Assembly (NCBI RefSeq): GCF_000376445.1
Contig: NZ_AQXI01000001.1
Location: 838,962-902,961 of the forward strand
Direction: 5' to 3'
DNA length: 64,000 nt
Origin: Haladaptatus paucihalophilus DX253
Lineage (GTDB): Archaea; Halobacteriota; Halobacteria; Halobacteriales; Haladaptataceae
Shown here: positions 50,310 through 59,627 of the stretch, one piece after another
Position numbering within the stretch: position 1 is the stretch's first letter
Layout of the letters: each line of letters starts with the position of its first letter
Program-made: the position numbers and the translations under genes
The notes under the pieces: generated by a model
Databases searched by the model: none
What the model was told of the DNA's origin: nothing
The model's input: the letters and a program-made list of their open reading frames with translations, nothing else

Positions 50310-51068
50310 GTGACGAACGCCCAGATAACGTTGATTCAGATCGACAACTACGGGCCGTGGACCGTGACGCCCGAACCGCGTCGGGAAGTGGACCTTCAAA
50401 CGTTGCAATCGCGCTTGTACGCCGACCTCTCGCAACTCATCGGCAACCGAGAGGGCTACGTCTTCTTCACGCGATTCGACAACATGGTGGCCGTGACGAA
50501 CGGTCTCTCTCTGGACGACCACGCGCTCGTGCAGGAATCGGTCGGCAACCGCTATCCCGTGACCGTCAGTTTGAGCGTCGCCACCGGAACGAATCCAGTG
50601 CAGGCCCTTCACGACGCCACGGAACTGCTACAGGACGCCGGAAGCGCACAGGACCACTCGCGCCGGGAGATTCTCGACGGTCGGACGATAGATGAGGAGT
50701 TCCGGACGGACGACGACGTGCAGATCGCCCACTTCGACGTGAACGACATGACCGGCAACTACACCGACGAGGTGAACGCCTTCGATTCGTTCATCCACAT
50801 CGAGCAGGGGTACGCCGAACTGATGCGCTACATGCGCGAGGCACACGACTCGCTCTCGTTTTTCGTCGGGGGCGACAACGTTATCGCCGTCTGCCCGAAT
50901 CTGACCGAATCGGACTACGAGGACGCGATTCGACACGTCAAGGAGAGCGTCGAAGTCGACCTGAAAGTCGGCGTCGGTCAGGGTCGGGTGCCACAGGACG
51001 CCGGGATGGACGCAAAACACGCGTTGGAAACGTGTCGTGCGACCGGCAGCAAAATCGAGTTCGAGTAG
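50310..51068 (+). CDS. GTP cyclohydrolase III (IIa)
   Basis: 252 residues from GTG 50310 (TNAQITLIQIDNYGPWTVTP). Two GGDEF-like repeats are visible: IQIDNYGPWTVTPEPRRE with LSQLIGNREGYVFFTRFDNMVAVTNGL, and AHFDVNDMTGNYTD with FFVGGDNVIAVCPNL and VGVGQGRVPQDAGMDAKHALE. The enzyme opens GTP to the formylamino-pyrimidine precursor used for archaeal riboflavin and F420. The length is the family norm. Confidence 0.93.
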   Translation: MTNAQITLIQIDNYGPWTVTPEPRREVDLQTLQSRLYADLSQLIGNREGYVFFTRFDNMVAVTNGLSLDDHALVQESVGNRYPVTVSLSVATGTNPVQALHDATELLQDAGSAQDHSRREILDGRTIDEEFRTDDDVQIAHFDVNDMTGNYTDEVNAFDSFIHIEQGYAELMRYMREAHDSLSFFVGGDNVIAVCPNLTESDYEDAIRHVKESVEVDLKVGVGQGRVPQDAGMDAKHALETCRATGSKIEFE

Positions 51069-51207
51069 TCGTCTTCGAATTCGGGTAGCCGTCCCCGAAT
51101 TCGAGACCTCGGTTTCGGGGCCGAAAACGTAGCTAGTACTATTCGACGGACGCGGGAATAAAGATGCCGGGGATACTTTTTAGGACGGTTGTGTCAAACG
51201 TTCACAT

Positions 51208-51786
51208 ATGGACGCTGAAGTCATAGTGCGGGACGTGATGACCCGGGAATACGTCGGGGTCAGCGAATCCGACACGGTGCTGGGTGCGGTTCGCCTCATG
51301 TCGGATGAGGGTGTGGGGAGCGTCGTCGTCCTCCGTGGACGTGAACCGGTCGGAATCATGACGGAGGCGGACGTACTGTCCCTCGTCGCGGACGAGGAAG
51401 AACCCAAGGAAACCACCGTCTCCGAAGCGATGTCGAAGCCGGTCATCTCGATGCGTCCCGACCGTAGCCTCGCCGACGCGGCCGGGATGATGGCACAGCA
51501 GGGAATTCGACGCATCATCATCACCGGGGCCGACGACGAACTGCTCGGCGTCCTCACCGAACGGGACGTCATCTCGGCGTCCGCATCCCCGCCGAGCATC
51601 ACGCGCTCCAACGAACGGGAGCGCGAACGGCAAGCCGCGGACACCGAACTCGGCGGACGAATGGAGACGAACGGAGGGGACAGCGAGTACACGAATCAGA
51701 GCATCTGTGAGGTCTGCGGCGCGCTCACCCACGATTTGACGAACGTCAACGGACAGTTGGTCTGTGCCGACTGCCGCGATTTCTAG
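51208..51786 (+). CDS. Tandem CBS-domain protein with C-terminal zinc ribbon
   Basis: 192 residues. CBS1 (residues about 5-60: VIVRDVMTREYVGVSESDTVLGAVRLM, PVGIMTEADVLSLV) and CBS2 (about 70-128: TVSEAMSKPVISMRPDRSLADAAGMM, LLGVLTERDVIS) form an adenosine-nucleotide-binding pair. An Arg/Glu linker leads to a zinc ribbon (SICEVCGALTHDL, LVCADCRDF; CxxC twice). CBS-Zn proteins sense energy state or act as regulators; the partner is unknown. Confidence 0.88.
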   Translation: MDAEVIVRDVMTREYVGVSESDTVLGAVRLMSDEGVGSVVVLRGREPVGIMTEADVLSLVADEEEPKETTVSEAMSKPVISMRPDRSLADAAGMMAQQGIRRIIITGADDELLGVLTERDVISASASPPSITRSNERERERQAADTELGGRMETNGGDSEYTNQSICEVCGALTHDLTNVNGQLVCADCRDF

Positions 51787-51887: not shown

Positions 51888-53246
51888 ATGCGATATGATA
51901 TCGAACGGCGTGACGTGTTGAAGGGCCTGGGTACGGCGGGAATCGCCGGACTCGCGGGCTGTATCGGTGGTGGCGGTGCCGGAAACGACAATACGAGCGA
52001 CACCGGTGATGGAGACGGAACCAGTGACGGAGGCGGTGGCGGCACGAACAGCGGCGGTCCCGACGTCATCAACGTCATCGGCTACCCCGAGAGCGGTATC
52101 CAGCTGTTCCGCGACTACTACAAGAGCACCGACGGGAAGCAGAAGATAATCGTCCCCGACGGCCTGCGCGACTCGAAACTGCCGAAGCAGGTCAGCAACG
52201 ACATGGCGAACGTCACCGGGACCGCGCCGGCGGCTTCCGGGCCGAACCAGCAGGCGTTCACGGAGATGTACAAAGACGAGTACGACCGTGAACCAGGCGT
52301 GTTCAACTCCCACACCTACGACGCAGTTGCCATCCTCATTCTTGCCAACGTGGCAGCGGGGGCCAACAACGGGGAGAAAATCCGCGACCAGATGCGTCGT
52401 GTCGCCAATCCCGGCGGGCAGAAATACGGCCCCGAGGACCTCGTGGATGCCGTCAAGGCCGCCTCACGCGGCGAGGACATCAACTACCAAGGCGCATCGA
52501 GCGTCGTGGACTTCGACAAAAAAGGAGACCCGGCGTCCGCGGCCTACGACGTTTGGAAGTTCGACTCCAGTGCCGACGGTGGCATCAAGACGGAGGATAC
52601 CATCAAATTCGAAGGCGAACCGAGCGGTAAGATGGCGGACAGTTCTCCCGGCGGCAAGAACCGAAAAGTCAAGGTCGGTATCCTGCTTCCCGAAACCGGC
52701 GACCTCGGGTCGACCGGGAGCCTGATGATAAACGCGGCGAAGATACCGGTCAAACAGGTCAACGACGCCGGCATCAACATCACTGTGGACTCCCAAATTG
52801 AGGATTCACAGACAAAGAAACAGGCGTCGCTCAGCGGCGCAAACGCGCTCGTCAGCGCCGGGTACCCTGCCATCTGTGGTCCCGCGTCGTCCGGGAACAA
52901 CATCCCCGTGAGCCAGCAGGTGTACATCAAGCAGGGTATCGTCGGCTGTTCGCCGTCCAGCACCGCGCTGACGGTGACGAACCTGAACGACGATGACTAC
53001 GTGTTCCGCACCGCGCCGAGCGACCTGCTCCAAGGCAAAGTCATGGCACAGGTCGCGTCCGAGCGATTGAGCGGCAAGACGGCCTCGACGCTGTTCGTCA
53101 ACAACAGCTACGGTCAACAGCTGTCCGACAAGTTCTCGAACACCTTCACCGACAAGTACGACGGCACGATGCTCCAGAAGGTGTCGTTCAACAAGGGCGA
53201 ATCGTCGTACACGTCCGTCATCAAGAAGGCGATGAGTTCGAACTGA
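51888..53246 (+). CDS. Branched-chain-amino-acid-type ABC binding protein, circularly permuted (copy 1)
   Basis: 452 residues. A Tat-type lipobox signal (RRDVLKGLGTAGIAGLAGC, Cys25) and Gly/Asp-rich linker lead directly into what is normally the C-terminal half of a LivJ-type protein, about residues 58-245: VINVIGYPESGIQLFRDYY, NVTGTAPAASGPNQQAF, NSHTYDAVAILILANVAAG. A linker follows. Then comes the half that normally starts the mature protein, residues 259-452: RKVKVGILLPETGDLGSTGS, YPAICGPASSGNNIPVSQQV, FRTAPSDLLQGKVMAQVA. The chain ends IKKAMSSN; joining this to residue 58 (PDVINVIGYP) restores the canonical sequence. It is presumably exported and serves the liv permease on the other strand. 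Confidence 0.88.
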   Translation: MRYDIERRDVLKGLGTAGIAGLAGCIGGGGAGNDNTSDTGDGDGTSDGGGGGTNSGGPDVINVIGYPESGIQLFRDYYKSTDGKQKIIVPDGLRDSKLPKQVSNDMANVTGTAPAASGPNQQAFTEMYKDEYDREPGVFNSHTYDAVAILILANVAAGANNGEKIRDQMRRVANPGGQKYGPEDLVDAVKAASRGEDINYQGASSVVDFDKKGDPASAAYDVWKFDSSADGGIKTEDTIKFEGEPSGKMADSSPGGKNRKVKVGILLPETGDLGSTGSLMINAAKIPVKQVNDAGINITVDSQIEDSQTKKQASLSGANALVSAGYPAICGPASSGNNIPVSQQVYIKQGIVGCSPSSTALTVTNLNDDDYVFRTAPSDLLQGKVMAQVASERLSGKTASTLFVNNSYGQQLSDKFSNTFTDKYDGTMLQKVSFNKGESSYTSVIKKAMSSN

Positions 53247-53360
53247 CCGCGCGTCTCACTCGTTCGGCCGTTTTCTCGGGAAAAAACGTCAGTCGCGCTG
53301 ACTGCTGGTGTATCGACCGCCGGACGATGAACCGACTGCCATCTATAATGATAGTTTAAG

Positions 53361-53366
53361 ATATAC
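53361..53366 (+). promoter_or_regulatory. TATA-like element of the second binding-protein gene
   Basis: ATATAC within TTTAAGATATACTTTT (53355-53370) lies 34 bp upstream of the ATG at 53400. Its own promoter means copy 2 can be expressed without copy 1. An imperfect hairpin (CAGTC/GACTG) at 53290-53304, after copy 1, may end the first transcript. Confidence 0.4.
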
Positions 53367-53399
53367 TTTTCCCTCGGAACGGTGAGGGTTCCACCGGGT

Positions 53400-54671
53400 A
53401 TGAGTCAGAAAATCGACCGTCGCGCCTACCTTCGAGCGGCAGGTGCAGCGACAACCGTGGGGCTGATGGGAACGCTCCAACAGGGGGGTGGACCGGATAT
53501 GCTCACCGTCATCGGCTATCCGGAGAGCGGAATTCAGCTGTTCCGCGACTTCTACGCGACCGGACGGGACGTTCCCGTCCTCGTGCCGGACGGGCTACAG
53601 AGTTCCAGCCTTCCGAAGGAAGTAGGTAACAACATGCAGAACGTGACCGGGACGGCACCCGCCGCCGCCGGTCCGAACCAACAGGCGTTCACGAAACTGT
53701 TCCGCGACCGTTACGACTCGCCGCCGGGCGTGTTCACGGCCCAGTCGTACGATTCCGTGGCGATTCTCATCCTCGCCAACGCGGCGGCGGGAGAGAACGA
53801 CGGGCAGAAGATCCGCGACCAGATGCGTCGCGTCGCCAATCCGCCGGGAACCGAGTACGGCCCGGAAAACTTGGTCGACGCCGTGAAAGCCGCCGCGAAC
53901 GGCGAAGACATCAACTACCAAGGCGCATCGAGTTCGACGAACTTCGACGCGAACGGCGACCCGGCGTCCGCGGCCTACGACGTCTGGAAGTTCGCACCGC
54001 AGACCGAAGACGGAATTCGAGTCGTCAACACCCGACAGTTCCAGAGCAACGCGGGCGGTCCGGAAGCGAACAACGCACCGGGAGGATTGGGTCGAACCAT
54101 CAGGGTCGGCATCCTGTTGCCACAGACCGGCGACCTCGCGTCCGTCGGCGGCCCGATGATTCAGGCGTCGAGAATCCCGATTCAGCAGGTGAACGAGGGG
54201 AACGTCGACCTCCAAGTCGAAACGCAAGTCGAGGACACCCAGACCGCTCGGCAGGCGTCGCTCAGCGGCGCGAACGCCCTCGTCAACGCGGGCTTCCCCG
54301 CCATCTCCGGTCCGGCGTCCTCGGGGAACAACATCCCCGTTGCGAGCGAGGTGTTTATCCCGAACCAAATCGTCGGCTGTTCGCCGTCCAGCACGGCCAT
54401 AACCGTCACGCGCCTGCAGGACGACGACTACATCTTCCGCACCGCGCCGAGCGACCTGCTCCAAGGCGGAGTGATGGCACAGGTCGCCGGTGAGCGCATC
54501 GGCGCGCAATCCGCCGCGACGCTGTACGTCAACAACGATTACGGCCAGCAACTGTCGAACCAGTTCGCACAGAAGTTCCAGCAGGACCAAGGCGGCAACG
54601 TCACTAACCAGGTGGCGTTCAACAAAGGGGAGTCGTCGTACTCCTCCGTCATTCAACAGGCGCTCGGCTGA
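53400..54671 (+). CDS. Branched-chain-amino-acid-type ABC binding protein, circularly permuted (copy 2)
   Basis: 423 residues from ATG 53400. The signal has twin arginines (KIDRRAYLRAAGAATTVGLMG) but no lipobox Cys, so the mature form may be free or anchored otherwise. The order is again permuted. C-half first: LTVIGYPESGIQLFRDFY, NVTGTAPAAAGPNQQAF, QSYDSVAILILANAAAG. Then a linker and the N-half: RTIRVGILLPQTGDLASVGG, FPAISGPASSGNNIPVASEV, FRTAPSDLLQGGVMAQVAGE, ending SSVIQQALG. It shares the same cut point as copy 1, so the duplication came after the permutation. The linker differs completely between copies. The ligand may differ. Confidence 0.87.
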   Translation: MSQKIDRRAYLRAAGAATTVGLMGTLQQGGGPDMLTVIGYPESGIQLFRDFYATGRDVPVLVPDGLQSSSLPKEVGNNMQNVTGTAPAAAGPNQQAFTKLFRDRYDSPPGVFTAQSYDSVAILILANAAAGENDGQKIRDQMRRVANPPGTEYGPENLVDAVKAAANGEDINYQGASSSTNFDANGDPASAAYDVWKFAPQTEDGIRVVNTRQFQSNAGGPEANNAPGGLGRTIRVGILLPQTGDLASVGGPMIQASRIPIQQVNEGNVDLQVETQVEDTQTARQASLSGANALVNAGFPAISGPASSGNNIPVASEVFIPNQIVGCSPSSTAITVTRLQDDDYIFRTAPSDLLQGGVMAQVAGERIGAQSAATLYVNNDYGQQLSNQFAQKFQQDQGGNVTNQVAFNKGESSYSSVIQQALG

Positions 54672-54679
54672 GCGCGCCG

Positions 54680-55525
54680 CTACGCCCGATTTTTGTGCGT
54701 CGTCCCCGACGCGCCGTCGCTCGTCCAGTTCCCACGAGTCCCGACCAACCGGTTGTCGCTCTCGTTCGAGCGCGCCACGACCGCCGCTCCGTCGGGATTC
54801 GAAAGCGTCGCGTTCCGTATCTCGTTGTTCCGTGAATCGACGAGCAGGAGGGCCTCGTCGGTCGAACGAACGACGGCATCCGTGGCCCGTCCGTTCCGGT
54901 CTCCGAGCAACGCGATGCCGGTTTTGCTCCGTACGACCGAGGCGTTGTTCACTGTCACGTCTCGGGAGTCGGCGACGAACAGGCCGACCGAACTCATATC
55001 CCGGACGACGCCGTTCGAGACGACGCTCCCGTCGGAGTCGCGCACGAAAATCCCGGTGAAGCCGTTCGTCGCCGTCACGCGTCCGACCCGCGACTCCGGG
55101 GAGTCGGAAACCGTCACGCCGTCCCCGGTGTGCCACGTCGTCACGTTCGTCACGGTCCCCCCGCGGGCCCCCTCGTATCGAACGCCGAACGTCCAGTTGA
55201 CGGCCGTCAGATCTCGCACCGTGACGTTCCGTCCCGTCACCGCGATACCCGTCGTGTTCTCCCGAAACGTGTGCCCGTCGATTACGTGTCCGTTCCCGTC
55301 GAGAACCACGTCGTCGGCGGTGATTCGAACGCACGACTCCGCGCGCTCGTCGATATCGTCGGTGAGAACGTAGCGCCCTGAATCACGTATCACCGAACAG
55401 GAATCGAGGCGAGTCGGCGGGTCGTCGAAGGCGGGCGTGGCGGGTGTTGGTACCCCAAACACGAAGACGAACGCGGCCACGACCGCAACCGCGAGCACCG
55501 GGGCCACCCACCGTGAACGCGCCAT
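54680..55525 (-). CDS. Secreted beta-helix (NosD/CASH-like) protein
   Basis: 281 residues from ATG 55525 (MARSRWVAPVLAVAVVAAFV), with an N-terminal signal or anchor helix. The opening YVLTDDIDE...CVRITADDVVLDGNGHVIDG is the typical start of NosD-like right-handed beta-helices. The rungs then repeat: ENTTGIAVTGRNVTVRDLT, ESRVGRVTATNGFTGIFVRDS. Such proteins bind surface carbohydrate or assist copper-site assembly. A nos operon is not present, so the role is open. It lies between the permuted binding-protein genes (convergent) and livF. Confidence 0.75.
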   Translation of the reverse strand: MARSRWVAPVLAVAVVAAFVFVFGVPTPATPAFDDPPTRLDSCSVIRDSGRYVLTDDIDERAESCVRITADDVVLDGNGHVIDGHTFRENTTGIAVTGRNVTVRDLTAVNWTFGVRYEGARGGTVTNVTTWHTGDGVTVSDSPESRVGRVTATNGFTGIFVRDSDGSVVSNGVVRDMSSVGLFVADSRDVTVNNASVVRSKTGIALLGDRNGRATDAVVRSTDEALLLVDSRNNEIRNATLSNPDGAAVVARSNESDNRLVGTRGNWTSDGASGTTHKNRA

Positions 55526-55664
55526 GGATGCAACACGCACCGCTCGTGCTTGTCGGTTGTGGCGAAGCGAGGTGAAGAAACGAGCGGGTGAAGCGGGAGC
55601 GGAGGTGCGAGGAAACGAGCGGAAGACAGGGGAGCGGACTACGAGCGGAAGACGAGGGAGCGGA

Positions 55665-56372
55665 CTATCCGCCGAGGAACTCCTGTCGAACCTCGTCATC
55701 CGCCAGCAGCGCGTCCCCGGTGTCCATGAAGCGGTTGCCGCCCTGCACGAGCACGTAGCCGCGGTCACAGCGCCGCAGGGCCTCTTTTGCGTTCTGTTCG
55801 ACCATCAGGATGGCCGTCCCGCTCTCGTTGATTTCGTCCACCTTGTCGAACATCTCGGCCACGAGGTCGGGGGCCAATCCCGCGCTGGGTTCGTCCAGCA
55901 TCAGCAGGTCGGGGTCCAGCATGAGCGCGCGGCCCATCGCCAGCATCTGCTGTTGTCCGCCGGACATCGTGCCCGCCTTCTGGTCCCTGCGCTCGTCCAG
56001 AATCGGGAACCGGTCGAACACCTCAGCGAGGGCGTCTTCGGGCACCTCGTCGAGGATGTACGCGCCCATCTCCAAGTTCTCCTGCACGGAGAGCGTCGGA
56101 AACACGTTGTCGTTCTGCGGGACGTAGCCGAGGCCGAGGTGGATGATGTCCTCCGGCGCGTCCCCCTGAATCTCCCCCCCGTCGAACGTGACCGTCCCGC
56201 CCATGTATGTCGTCAGCCCGAAGACGGACTTCATCACGGTCGATTTCCCGGCCCCGTTCGGGCCGACGATGGTGACGTACTCGCCGTCCTCGACGCGCAT
56301 ATCGACGTTGTTCAGGATTTGCAGGTCCTCGCCGTATCCCGCATCGAGTCCGTCCACTTCGAGGAGCGCCAT
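55665..56372 (-). CDS. livF: Branched-chain amino acid ABC transporter ATP-binding protein LivF
   Basis: 235 residues. Walker A GPNGAGKST, signature GTMSGGQQQMLAMGRALM, Walker B LLMLDEPSAGLAP, and switch His replaced by Gln in ILMVEQNAKEAL, as in LivF. The VPQNDNVFPTLSVQENLEMGAY Q-loop region is characteristic. Its ATG overlaps the livG stop by one base. It works with LivG and the LivH/LivM channel to import branched-chain or related amino acids. Confidence 0.93.
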   Translation of the reverse strand: MALLEVDGLDAGYGEDLQILNNVDMRVEDGEYVTIVGPNGAGKSTVMKSVFGLTTYMGGTVTFDGGEIQGDAPEDIIHLGLGYVPQNDNVFPTLSVQENLEMGAYILDEVPEDALAEVFDRFPILDERRDQKAGTMSGGQQQMLAMGRALMLDPDLLMLDEPSAGLAPDLVAEMFDKVDEINESGTAILMVEQNAKEALRRCDRGYVLVQGGNRFMDTGDALLADDEVRQEFLGG

Positions 56373-57205
56373 CAGATTTCCTCCCCGAGGTAGGCGTCGA
56401 TGACCTGTTCGTTCGAACGGATGGCCGCGGGTTTCCCCTCGGCAAGCACTTTGCCTTGATGCATGACGATGACGTGTTCGCAGTTGTTCATGATGACGTC
56501 CATGTCGTGTTCGACCAACAGGAACGTGTAGCCGCGTTCACGGAGTTCGTGAACGTGTTTGAGCAGTTTCTTCTCCAGCGACGGGTTGACGCCCGCGAGC
56601 GGTTCGTCCAGCAGGACCATCTGCGGGTCGGTCATGAGCGCCCGCGCCATCTCCAGCAGTTTTCGCTGCCCGCCGGAGAGGTTGCCCGCGTACTCGCTCG
56701 CGAGGTGGTCGATTTCGAAGAACTCCAGCATCTCCCACGACCGTTCGAGCATCTCCTCTTCCTGCTCCCGAACGTCGCCCCGCAATCCGGGCGTCACCGA
56801 CCGCCAAAGCCGTTCGCCCTCCTGCGCTTTCGGGGCGAGCATCATGTTCTCCAAGACGGTCATCTCGGAGAGTTCGCGGGCTATCTGAAACGTCCTGACC
56901 ATGCCGCGGTCGGCTATCTGATACGGCTGGAGTCCCGTAATCTCGTCGTCGTTGAAGTACACCGCGCCGCTGTCCGGTTGATAGACGCCCGTGATGAGGT
57001 TGAACGTCGTGGACTTCCCCGCGCCGTTCGGGCCGATGAGGCCGGTGAACGACCCCTGTTCGACGGAGAACGTCGCGCCATCGACCGCCGTGATGCCGCC
57101 GAAGGTCTTCCGGAGGTTCTCGACGCGAAGCGGCGTCTCGCTCAGGTCCGCCACCTCGTTTCCGATGTCGAGCGTCTCGGTTTCGGCCGTCTCGCTCGCG
57201 GTCAT
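56372..57205 (-). CDS. livG: Branched-chain amino acid ABC transporter ATP-binding protein LivG
   Basis: 277 residues. Walker A GPNGAGKST, the RTFQIARELSEMTVLENMMLAP region, signature NLSGGQRKLLEMARALM, Walker B MVLLDEPLAGVNP, and His switch LVEHDMDVIM as in LivG. A 30-residue acidic N-terminus precedes the core. It overlaps livM by four bases. Together with livF it powers the transporter. Confidence 0.93.
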   Translation of the reverse strand: MTASETAETETLDIGNEVADLSETPLRVENLRKTFGGITAVDGATFSVEQGSFTGLIGPNGAGKSTTFNLITGVYQPDSGAVYFNDDEITGLQPYQIADRGMVRTFQIARELSEMTVLENMMLAPKAQEGERLWRSVTPGLRGDVREQEEEMLERSWEMLEFFEIDHLASEYAGNLSGGQRKLLEMARALMTDPQMVLLDEPLAGVNPSLEKKLLKHVHELRERGYTFLLVEHDMDVIMNNCEHVIVMHQGKVLAEGKPAAIRSNEQVIDAYLGEEI

Positions 57206-58515
57206 TGCTCCTCACCTCCGTCCGCCGCGGGCGTCGGTTTCGCCTCGCCGGAGCCGCCGCCGGGACGCGAGAGCGGGATGCTCGCCGCTTCCTCCTTGCG
57301 GTGGCCGAGGACGCCCTCGGGCCGGTGTTGCATTATCCAGATGAGGACGGCCCCCATGATGACCAACTGAAGCGCGTTGATGTTGTTGATGATGTACGCG
57401 ACCATCGGCGTGATGTGGCCGTTGAACAGCGGGCCGACCGCATCCGCGAACGTGTTCGGCGCGCCGGACACGTTGTACACCTGCCGGATGATGTTCTTGA
57501 GGTAGAGCGGTCCCTGATACAGCAACCCGGCGAACACCGCCGCGCCGAGGACGCTCCCGGTGTTCGACCCGGCACCGCCGATGATGAGGGCCAACCACAC
57601 GAAGAACGTCACCTGCGGCTTGAACGAGGTCGGCGTGATGGCACCTTGGCGCATCTGCCAGAGGATGCCCGCCAGCCCCATCAGCGCACAGCCGAGCATG
57701 AACGACTTGATCTTGAACACGTCGGTGTTCTTTCCGAGGGAGTTCGCCACCTCCTCGTCCTCGCGGATGGCCTTGAGCACGCGCCCGAACGGCGATTCAC
57801 CGGTCCGCTTCATCAGCCAGTAGAACGCCGCCACGAATCCCATCAGGATGACGGCGTAGGTCAGCGAGTTGAGCACCGGTCCGATGGACCCGCCGACGAG
57901 CGGATTGAGCGCGTCGTCGAGCGCGCCGTACGGGGCGCTGTCGAACAGCGGTTGCAGCGGGTCTTCGAAGTTCAACAACAGACCGCGACCGCCGCCGGTT
58001 CCGAGCGTCTTGCCGAACAGCGTGAACGTCTGGAACTGGTCCGACATCACGATGAAGCGGATGATCTCGGAGGTCGCGATGGTCACGATGGCGAGGTAGT
58101 CCGCCCGCAACCGGAGCGCCGGAAGCGCGACGAGCAACCCGAGAATCGCCGCCGCGAGCATCCCCGCGAGGATGCCGACCCACAGCGGGAGGCCGAGACC
58201 GGAGACGGTCGCGGCACCGGCGGTCGCGCTCGCGGGGGGTTTCGAGACGATGGCCATCGTGTACAAGCCGACCGCCATGAACCCCGCGATGCCGATGTTG
58301 AACAGGCCCGTGTATCCCCAGTGGAGGTTCAACGCGAGCGCCAACATCCCGTACACGCCGATGAGGAACGTGAGGCGTGCGAGGGAGTTCAACTGGCCAC
58401 GGAGCGAGTAGCCGAGCGCCGACCCCGCCAAGAGGTACAGCACGTAGATGGCCAGCAGTACGCCGAGGATGAGCATCGTGTCGTTGATCTCGAAATCGCG
58501 GACGCTCGAACTCAT
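57202..58515 (-). CDS. livM: Branched-chain amino acid ABC transporter permease LivM
   Basis: 437 residues from ATG 58515 (MSSSVRDFEINDTMLILGVL). About nine to ten membrane helices, with the LivM segments ALNLHWGYTGLFNIGIAGFMAVGLYTM and RVLKAIREDEEVANSLGKNTDVFKIKSFMLGCALMGLAGILWQM (EAA-like loop to the ATPases). The last 45 residues are a polar cytosolic tail. The start overlaps livH by four bases. The longer open frame upstream lies within livH in another frame. Confidence 0.93.
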   Translation of the reverse strand: MSSSVRDFEINDTMLILGVLLAIYVLYLLAGSALGYSLRGQLNSLARLTFLIGVYGMLALALNLHWGYTGLFNIGIAGFMAVGLYTMAIVSKPPASATAGAATVSGLGLPLWVGILAGMLAAAILGLLVALPALRLRADYLAIVTIATSEIIRFIVMSDQFQTFTLFGKTLGTGGGRGLLLNFEDPLQPLFDSAPYGALDDALNPLVGGSIGPVLNSLTYAVILMGFVAAFYWLMKRTGESPFGRVLKAIREDEEVANSLGKNTDVFKIKSFMLGCALMGLAGILWQMRQGAITPTSFKPQVTFFVWLALIIGGAGSNTGSVLGAAVFAGLLYQGPLYLKNIIRQVYNVSGAPNTFADAVGPLFNGHITPMVAYIINNINALQLVIMGAVLIWIMQHRPEGVLGHRKEEAASIPLSRPGGGSGEAKPTPAADGGEEQ

Positions 58516-59627
58516 GCGGTCGTCCTCCCGGCGAACAGACCCTGTGGCTTGAACAGCAAGATGAGGATCATCATGCCGAACGCGGCGGCGCGGCCGAAGG
58601 CGCTCGGAATCCATATGATGGAGAGGTTCCACGTCAGCCCGATGACCAACCCACCCAGAATCGCGCCGTAAATCGACCCGATGCCGCCGAGGATGACCGC
58701 GGCGAATATCGGGAGCAAGAGGAGCCACCCGAACTGGAAGACGATGGTTCCCTTCCAGAGTACCAACAGGTAGCCTGCGATGCCGGTCAGACCGCCGCCG
58801 ATGATCCACGTCCAGCGGATGACGCGTTCGGTCGGAATGCCGCTGATGCGAGCGAGGTCCTCGTTGTCGGCCATCGCGCGCATCGCCTTGCCGAGTTTCG
58901 TCCGCTGCAACAGCAGGTGAACGCCGATCATCAAGCCGACCGTGCAGACGAGGAGCGTCAGGTCGTGTGCCGTCACGCGGACGGTTCCGTCCCAGAGCAA
59001 CAGGTTCCACTTGGGGATATCCTGTAGCGCCGTCGTTCCGCGGTTCTCGGTCGAGAAGACGAACACGATGAGGTAGCGGAGCACGAACGCCACGCCGACG
59101 CTCGTGATGAGGAGCGAAATCCCTTCCGCGTCCCGCATCGGTCGGTAGACGATACGGTCGATGAGGAGCGCCAGTACGACGGTGCTAACACCGGCGAACA
59201 CCAGCCCCAAGACGACCGCTATCGGGGTCGTCGCGATGGTGATACCGAGACTGCTGGCGTAGACGGAGCCGCCCGCGCCGACCAGCAACAGCCCCGCGAT
59301 GTTGTTGCTCCCCAACCCCGCGATGAGGTACGTAACTGCCCACCCCGAGAACGCGCCACTCGTGATGTAGTCTCCGTGCGAGAAGTTTGCGAAATTCAGT
59401 ATGCTGTACGTCATCGAAAGCCCGATTCCGGCGAGACCGATGATGAGTCCCCGCATGAGGCCGTTCCACACGAGTGACCCTACGTCGGAAACCAGTAGGT
59501 CGCCGGACAGCAGGCGATTGATGAAGTCGAAAACGAGGAGTACCCCGACCAGTCCGACGACCACCAGCAGCGGTCGTTCGACGATGAGGCGACGTCCACG
59601 TGAATAGGTCTCATTTACGCCGTTCAT
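58512..59627 (-). CDS. livH: Branched-chain amino acid ABC transporter permease LivH
   Basis: 371 residues. LivH features are GLAGIGLSMTYSILNFANFSHGDYITSGAF near the first helices and LGKAMRAMADNEDLARISGIPTERVIRWTWIIGGGLTGIAGYLLVLW (EAA-like loop). FAAVILGGIGSIYGAILGGLVIGL lies near the C-terminus. It has about eight to nine membrane helices. It is the first gene of livHMGF, all overlapping by one to four bases. A good TATA element lies upstream at 59664-59671. The binding proteins for the system are encoded on the other strand, facing it. Confidence 0.93.
   Translation of the reverse strand: MNGVNETYSRGRRLIVERPLLVVVGLVGVLLVFDFINRLLSGDLLVSDVGSLVWNGLMRGLIIGLAGIGLSMTYSILNFANFSHGDYITSGAFSGWAVTYLIAGLGSNNIAGLLLVGAGGSVYASSLGITIATTPIAVVLGLVFAGVSTVVLALLIDRIVYRPMRDAEGISLLITSVGVAFVLRYLIVFVFSTENRGTTALQDIPKWNLLLWDGTVRVTAHDLTLLVCTVGLMIGVHLLLQRTKLGKAMRAMADNEDLARISGIPTERVIRWTWIIGGGLTGIAGYLLVLWKGTIVFQFGWLLLLPIFAAVILGGIGSIYGAILGGLVIGLTWNLSIIWIPSAFGRAAAFGMMILILLFKPQGLFAGRTTA

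Follow-up and report, generated by a model that had tools for sequence, protein, structure and literature searches.

A type I binding protein that is circularly permuted in nature has been described from Treponema pallidum, where TpMglB-2 (Tp0684) was solved and proposed as 'Type Ic / Cluster Bc', with the cut in the N-lobe and a strand order of 5-4-6-1-2-3 (PMC4990184). In the present study, two tandem genes for LivJ-type binding proteins were analyzed in a stretch of 64,000 nucleotides (the window) from the haloarchaeon Haladaptatus paucihalophilus DX253. An earlier, sequence-only reading of the window had proposed that both are circularly permuted. Its remark that no permuted type I binding protein had been described was wrong, as shown by TpMglB-2; our literature search, with most subscription papers outside its coverage, revealed no earlier report of a permuted haloarchaeal LivJ.

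Organization of the Locus

The features of the locus are listed in Table 1. The genetic link of the binding protein (SBP) pair to LivHMGF genes was shown by Pfam matches to the adjacent livFGMH and by locus comparison. The signal of copy 1 matched TIGR01409 with an E value of 0.0098, just below the model cut-off. For copy 2, the ATG at 53400 was preferred over the GTG at 53382 as start, since a GMSxKIDRR stretch was conserved in relatives. Between the SBP pair and livF, a NosD/beta-helix gene was detected (54680–55615, minus strand; PF05048, PF13229), which had no tblastn match in the other loci scanned.

TABLE 1. Features of the binding protein locus, with positions numbered from the first base of the window.
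Feature	Position	Strand	Evidence
Copy 1, permuted LivJ/HAAT-type binding protein, Tat lipoprotein, 452 aa	51888..53246	+	Pfam PF13458 permuted; AlphaFold pTM 0.83
Copy 1, twin-arginine signal peptide, lipobox LAGC (Cys25)	51888..51962	+	Sequence; TIGR01409
Copy 1, spacer, G/S/D-rich	51963..52058	+	pLDDT mostly <50
Copy 1, canonical C-terminal half, placed first, residues 58–247	52059..52628	+	Pfam, BLAST
Copy 1, linker from old C-terminus to old N-terminus, limits approximate	52629..52655	+	
Copy 1, canonical N-terminal half, placed last, residues 257–452	52656..53243	+	Pfam, BLAST
Copy 2, tandem paralogue, same permutation, 423 aa, Tat-type signal without lipobox Cys	53400..54671	+	Pfam PF13458
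Copy 2, canonical C-terminal half, placed first	53493..54059	+	
Copy 2, canonical N-terminal half, placed last	54093..54668	+	
livF, ABC ATPase of linked importer	55665..56372	-	Pfam PF00005; SBP-linked in most examined loci
livG, ABC ATPase, BCA_ABC_TP_C tail	56372..57205	-	Pfam
livM, permease, start approximate	57202..58530	-	PF02653
livH, permease	58512..59627	-	PF02653
GTP cyclohydrolase III and CBS-domain genes, upstream syntenic markers	50310..51786	+	Common to loci with canonical SBP

The same order of neighbours was found to recur across genera (udk, GTP cyclohydrolase III, CBS gene, SBP, convergent livF-livG-livM-livH, pgk); not every locus had all of these markers. The SBP at this place was permuted in the window and in eight further loci, and canonical at the equivalent place in five loci. 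Thus, the permuted and canonical SBPs share one place and are orthologues in place, not a new family inserted elsewhere. Besides, two genomes of the same family (G019 and G022) were found to have tandem pairs of canonical SBPs of a distant clade beside liv genes and pgk, showing that tandem SBP duplication occurs in this neighbourhood.

Order of the Halves in the Two Binding Proteins

The colinear N-to-C order expected of the Peripla_BP_6/HAAT family was absent in both copies. Copy 1 matched positions 189–311 of the PF13458 profile at 52053–52403 and then positions 1–190 at 52665–53243, and in copy 2 profile positions 188–311 came first, followed by 1–187; the Peripla_BP_6 scores of the two copies were 102 and 104 bits compared to a cut-off of 31.7. 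BLAST comparison with a single-copy canonical homologue gave two HSPs, out of order, for each protein. When the canonical haloarchaeal homologue was doubled, one HSP was obtained for each, covering residues 58–451 of copy 1 (42.6% identity, E 1.25e-114) and residues 32–422 of copy 2 (49.5% identity, E 1.86e-134). Both halves were 43–52% identical to canonical relatives. On the solved chain 3td9, the end of the permuted profile aligned to residue 202 and the PDV start to residue 205, leaving no gap of more than two residues at the join. Judged from their sequences, both proteins are permuted derivatives of Peripla_BP_6/HAAT rather than ordinary members.

These results bear out the central claim of the sequence-only reading, circular permutation of a LivJ-type protein, both by the Pfam order and by the comparison with a doubled canonical protein that it had proposed, in which each copy gave a single colinear match. 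The coordinates, order of halves, shared cut and separate signal peptides and linkers were found by sequence and Pfam as it had described them. Its statement that joining the C-terminus of copy 1 to residue 58 restores the usual order also holds, residue 58 (PDV) following directly after 452 in canonical homologues.

Predicted Fold and Cut Site

An AlphaFold2 model of copy 1, built on 58 permuted sequences, gave a single confident fold (mean pLDDT 84.7), in which pLDDT fell below 50 only at residues 1–54 (signal and spacer). The structure prediction suggested earlier as a check thus points to one globular protein. Foldseek, which aligns in sequence order and returned half-chain matches and no whole-chain superposition, gave LivJ-type structures as best matches to the model over approximately 190–205 columns, corresponding to one chain half, with an rmsd of 2.2–2.6 A for the best of them. 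Matches of half length are what a permuted version of the LivJ fold would be expected to give.

In the copy 1 model and 3td9, the cut lies between helix 442–449 and strand 60–64, after the first lobe crossover (FRTAPSD), and was therefore placed in the C-lobe according to the known LivJ domain plan. Seven residues from both halves (D91, G92, S335, S355, P356, S358, and T359) were invariant in the aligned permuted proteins; by analogy with LivJ, such positions presumably line the amino-acid site.

Distribution and Selection

A sample of 393 genomes of the order was searched, 392 of them drawn evenly and one being that of the window, and a genome was regarded as a permuted carrier when it gave a single colinear match with E under about 1e-90. 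A close permuted relative was found in 159 genomes and a canonical-order relative in 177, with both forms present in 43 and neither in 100. The search for the same N–C order in other haloarchaea, which had also been proposed from the sequence, thus showed the permuted form to be widespread. The two forms were negatively associated across the 393 genomes (odds ratio 0.28, kinship uncorrected). Genera with named permuted carriers are, among others, Haladaptatus, Halorubrum, Haloferax, Haloquadratum, and Halobellus, as well as Halogeometricum, Halorussus, Halostella, Natrialba, and Natronorubrum. Outside the order, only the canonical order was found among the relatives listed from 295 genomes drawn across the phylum.

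Seven comparisons with congeners, covering both copies, gave dN/dS values of about 0.10–0.21, which shows that both copies are under purifying selection. Apart from the permuted pair, three congeners had a further SBP of canonical order, located on another contig and accompanied by liv genes of its own, and Haloquadratum walsbyi J07HQW2 had two permuted matches approximately 11 kb apart on one scaffold.

Number of Permutation Events

In a tree of 83 SBP sequences with the halves put back into one order, the permuted proteins fell into four well-supported clades (A, which contains the window proteins, B, C, and D) that were separated among canonical proteins. A single permuted clade was rejected when both halves were combined (AU p 0.019), and so was a grouping of clades A and B (AU p 0.023), but a grouping of C and D was not (p 0.36); by these sequences the permuted proteins would represent three to four separate clades. 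The unpermuted livFGHM genes, analyzed in a quick tree of 1295 columns from 56 loci to which operon transfer could contribute, showed the same division as the SBP, at least three changes being required by its strong branches, and rejected a single clade of permuted operons (p 0.0004). Since both the SBP tree and the linked livFGHM genes reject a single origin, recurrence is held to be likely, and the permutation probably arose more than once. A more specific proposal, which in our judgement stands at even odds, is that the SBP at one orthologous transporter locus was permuted at least three times at the same loop within haloarchaea, with permuted and canonical forms replacing each other in place. 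Chain topology would then have evolved in parallel, perhaps owing to the shift of the lipid tether to the other lobe.

An unlikely, though not negligible, alternative is that the scattered pattern was produced by a single ancient permutation, followed either by several reversals or by transfer or gene conversion between copies of the two forms. The cut was identical within a few residues across all clades, the permuted proteins ending in SYTSxxxxALxx or close variants and starting after the spacer with PDxxxVIGYP or VGFP, and this is more simply explained by one event. Neither half alone rejected a single permuted clade (p 0.145 for the C-half and 0.076 for the N-half), and the 43 genomes with both forms would allow conversion within each colinear half. 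On the other hand, one gain would require eight losses by parsimony compared to four gains, a single clade is rejected by the combined halves and by livFGHM as given above, and the canonical genes inspected near permuted clades had no obvious junction scar. The linkers point both ways: those of clades A and C showed a weak likeness (1% of shuffles), those of A and B none beyond chance, and the linker homology test revealed no clear linker common to the clades.

The Tandem Pair and Its Anchoring

The two window copies grouped together within clade A of the 83-sequence tree. In a FastTree analysis with more relatives, the clades of copy 1 and copy 2 were near each other without being exact sisters, and a single Halomicrococcus gene was placed with full support as the sister of copy 2. 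Like copy 2, the Halomicrococcus gene has no lipobox Cys. Together, these findings place the duplication before the genus Haladaptatus; Halomicrococcus has probably lost copy 1. These sequence relationships support a later origin of the tandem pair, by duplication after the permutation. The route proposed earlier, in which duplication of a normal gene and loss of the outer halves preceded a second duplication, was thus supported in its second step by the copies lying in one clade; its first step is plausible, and no intermediate or remnant of it was found.

The lipobox was kept in most permuted proteins, with a median spacer of 20–38 residues depending on the clade. It lacks its Cys in Halomicrococcus and in those copy 2 genes of Haladaptatus that were examined, with the Tat-type signal kept (53400–53492 in the window). 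Anchoring may therefore differ between the two copies, and copy 2 may be released or held via an uncleaved signal.

Proposed Function and Origin

Both genes would encode secreted SBPs of the adjacent LivHMGF-type (HAAT) ABC importer, exported via the Tat route, with copy 1 lipid-anchored. The usual two-lobe clamp would close on the predicted ligand, probably an amino acid, which would be handed to LivHM. The fold and cleft would be kept, and the membrane-anchored N-terminus, formerly on the N-lobe, would now be on the C-lobe. The genes at the conserved locus would have been canonical at first and would have been rearranged at the same site more than once in haloarchaea, most likely through a tandem duplication from which the outer halves were then lost, and a later duplication would have given the pair seen here. 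We assign a probability of about 0.7 to this explanation as a whole, that is, permuted SBPs of the importer under purifying selection whose order changed in place by repeated duplication and trimming.

Circular permutation has a standard explanation in duplication with trimming (PMC3320104). Neither remnants of half genes nor intermediates with three halves were found in the loci scanned, where the only tandem cases were the permuted pairs of Haladaptatus and the canonical pairs of G019 and G022. Fission and fusion, by which halves that were once separate polypeptides were rejoined in the other order, is likewise a recognised route (PMC3320104); we consider it improbable here, as no split halves were present in the fetched loci scanned and the canonical gene was contiguous at the cut, also in relatives outside the order. 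That there is no permutation at all, the first domain being unrelated or the genes an assembly artefact, has practically no probability: the first half matches the end of Peripla_BP_6 and shares approximately 51% identity with the C-half in canonical homologues, and the presence of the permuted gene in 159 of the 393 genomes, and in many independently sequenced named genomes, speaks against chance and agrees with the earlier view that it is not an assembly join.

Natural circular permutations are usually regarded as old, one-time events that set distant proteins apart. In this case, permuted and canonical forms are orthologues of 43–52% identity at one locus across an archaeal order, so that their ancestry, the selection of the cut site and any effect on fitness are directly testable, also in Haloferax, which serves as a genus for genetic work. 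Permuted genes of this type are scored as fragments by end-to-end family models. Should the repetition be true, the cut loop would be a preferred site, and the lobe that bears the membrane anchor may matter.

Comparison with Known Systems

Natural permutations explained by duplication are also known from DNA methyltransferases and saposin/swaposin, whose folds and functions are unrelated to those of the window proteins; intermediates have been documented for the DNA methyltransferases (PMC3320104), whereas none was found here. With canonical LivJ/HAAT proteins (PF13458; 3td9, 4gnr, 1z15), the window proteins have in common the two halves, the conserved residues and the linkage to LivHMGF genes, but they differ from them in the swapped order of the halves, the termini at a C-lobe loop and the linker joining the old ends.

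A closely related case is TpMglB-2, likewise a natural circular permutation of a lipid-tethered type I binding protein, in which binding and conformational change are kept (PMC4990184). TpMglB-2 is bacterial, belongs to the glucose-binding MglB family and is cut in the N-lobe, whereas the window proteins are archaeal, belong to the LivJ family and are cut in the C-lobe. The N-lobe cut that defines Type Ic is thus absent, and the Pfam matches at E ≤ 0.01 included no sugar-binding (MglB-type) family. The permuted part of TpMglB-2 is only 13% identical to EcMglB, far below the identity of the window halves to their canonical relatives, and the window proteins have canonical orthologues at the same locus. 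The kind is already known through TpMglB-2, and the window represents a distinct archaeal case within the LivJ family.
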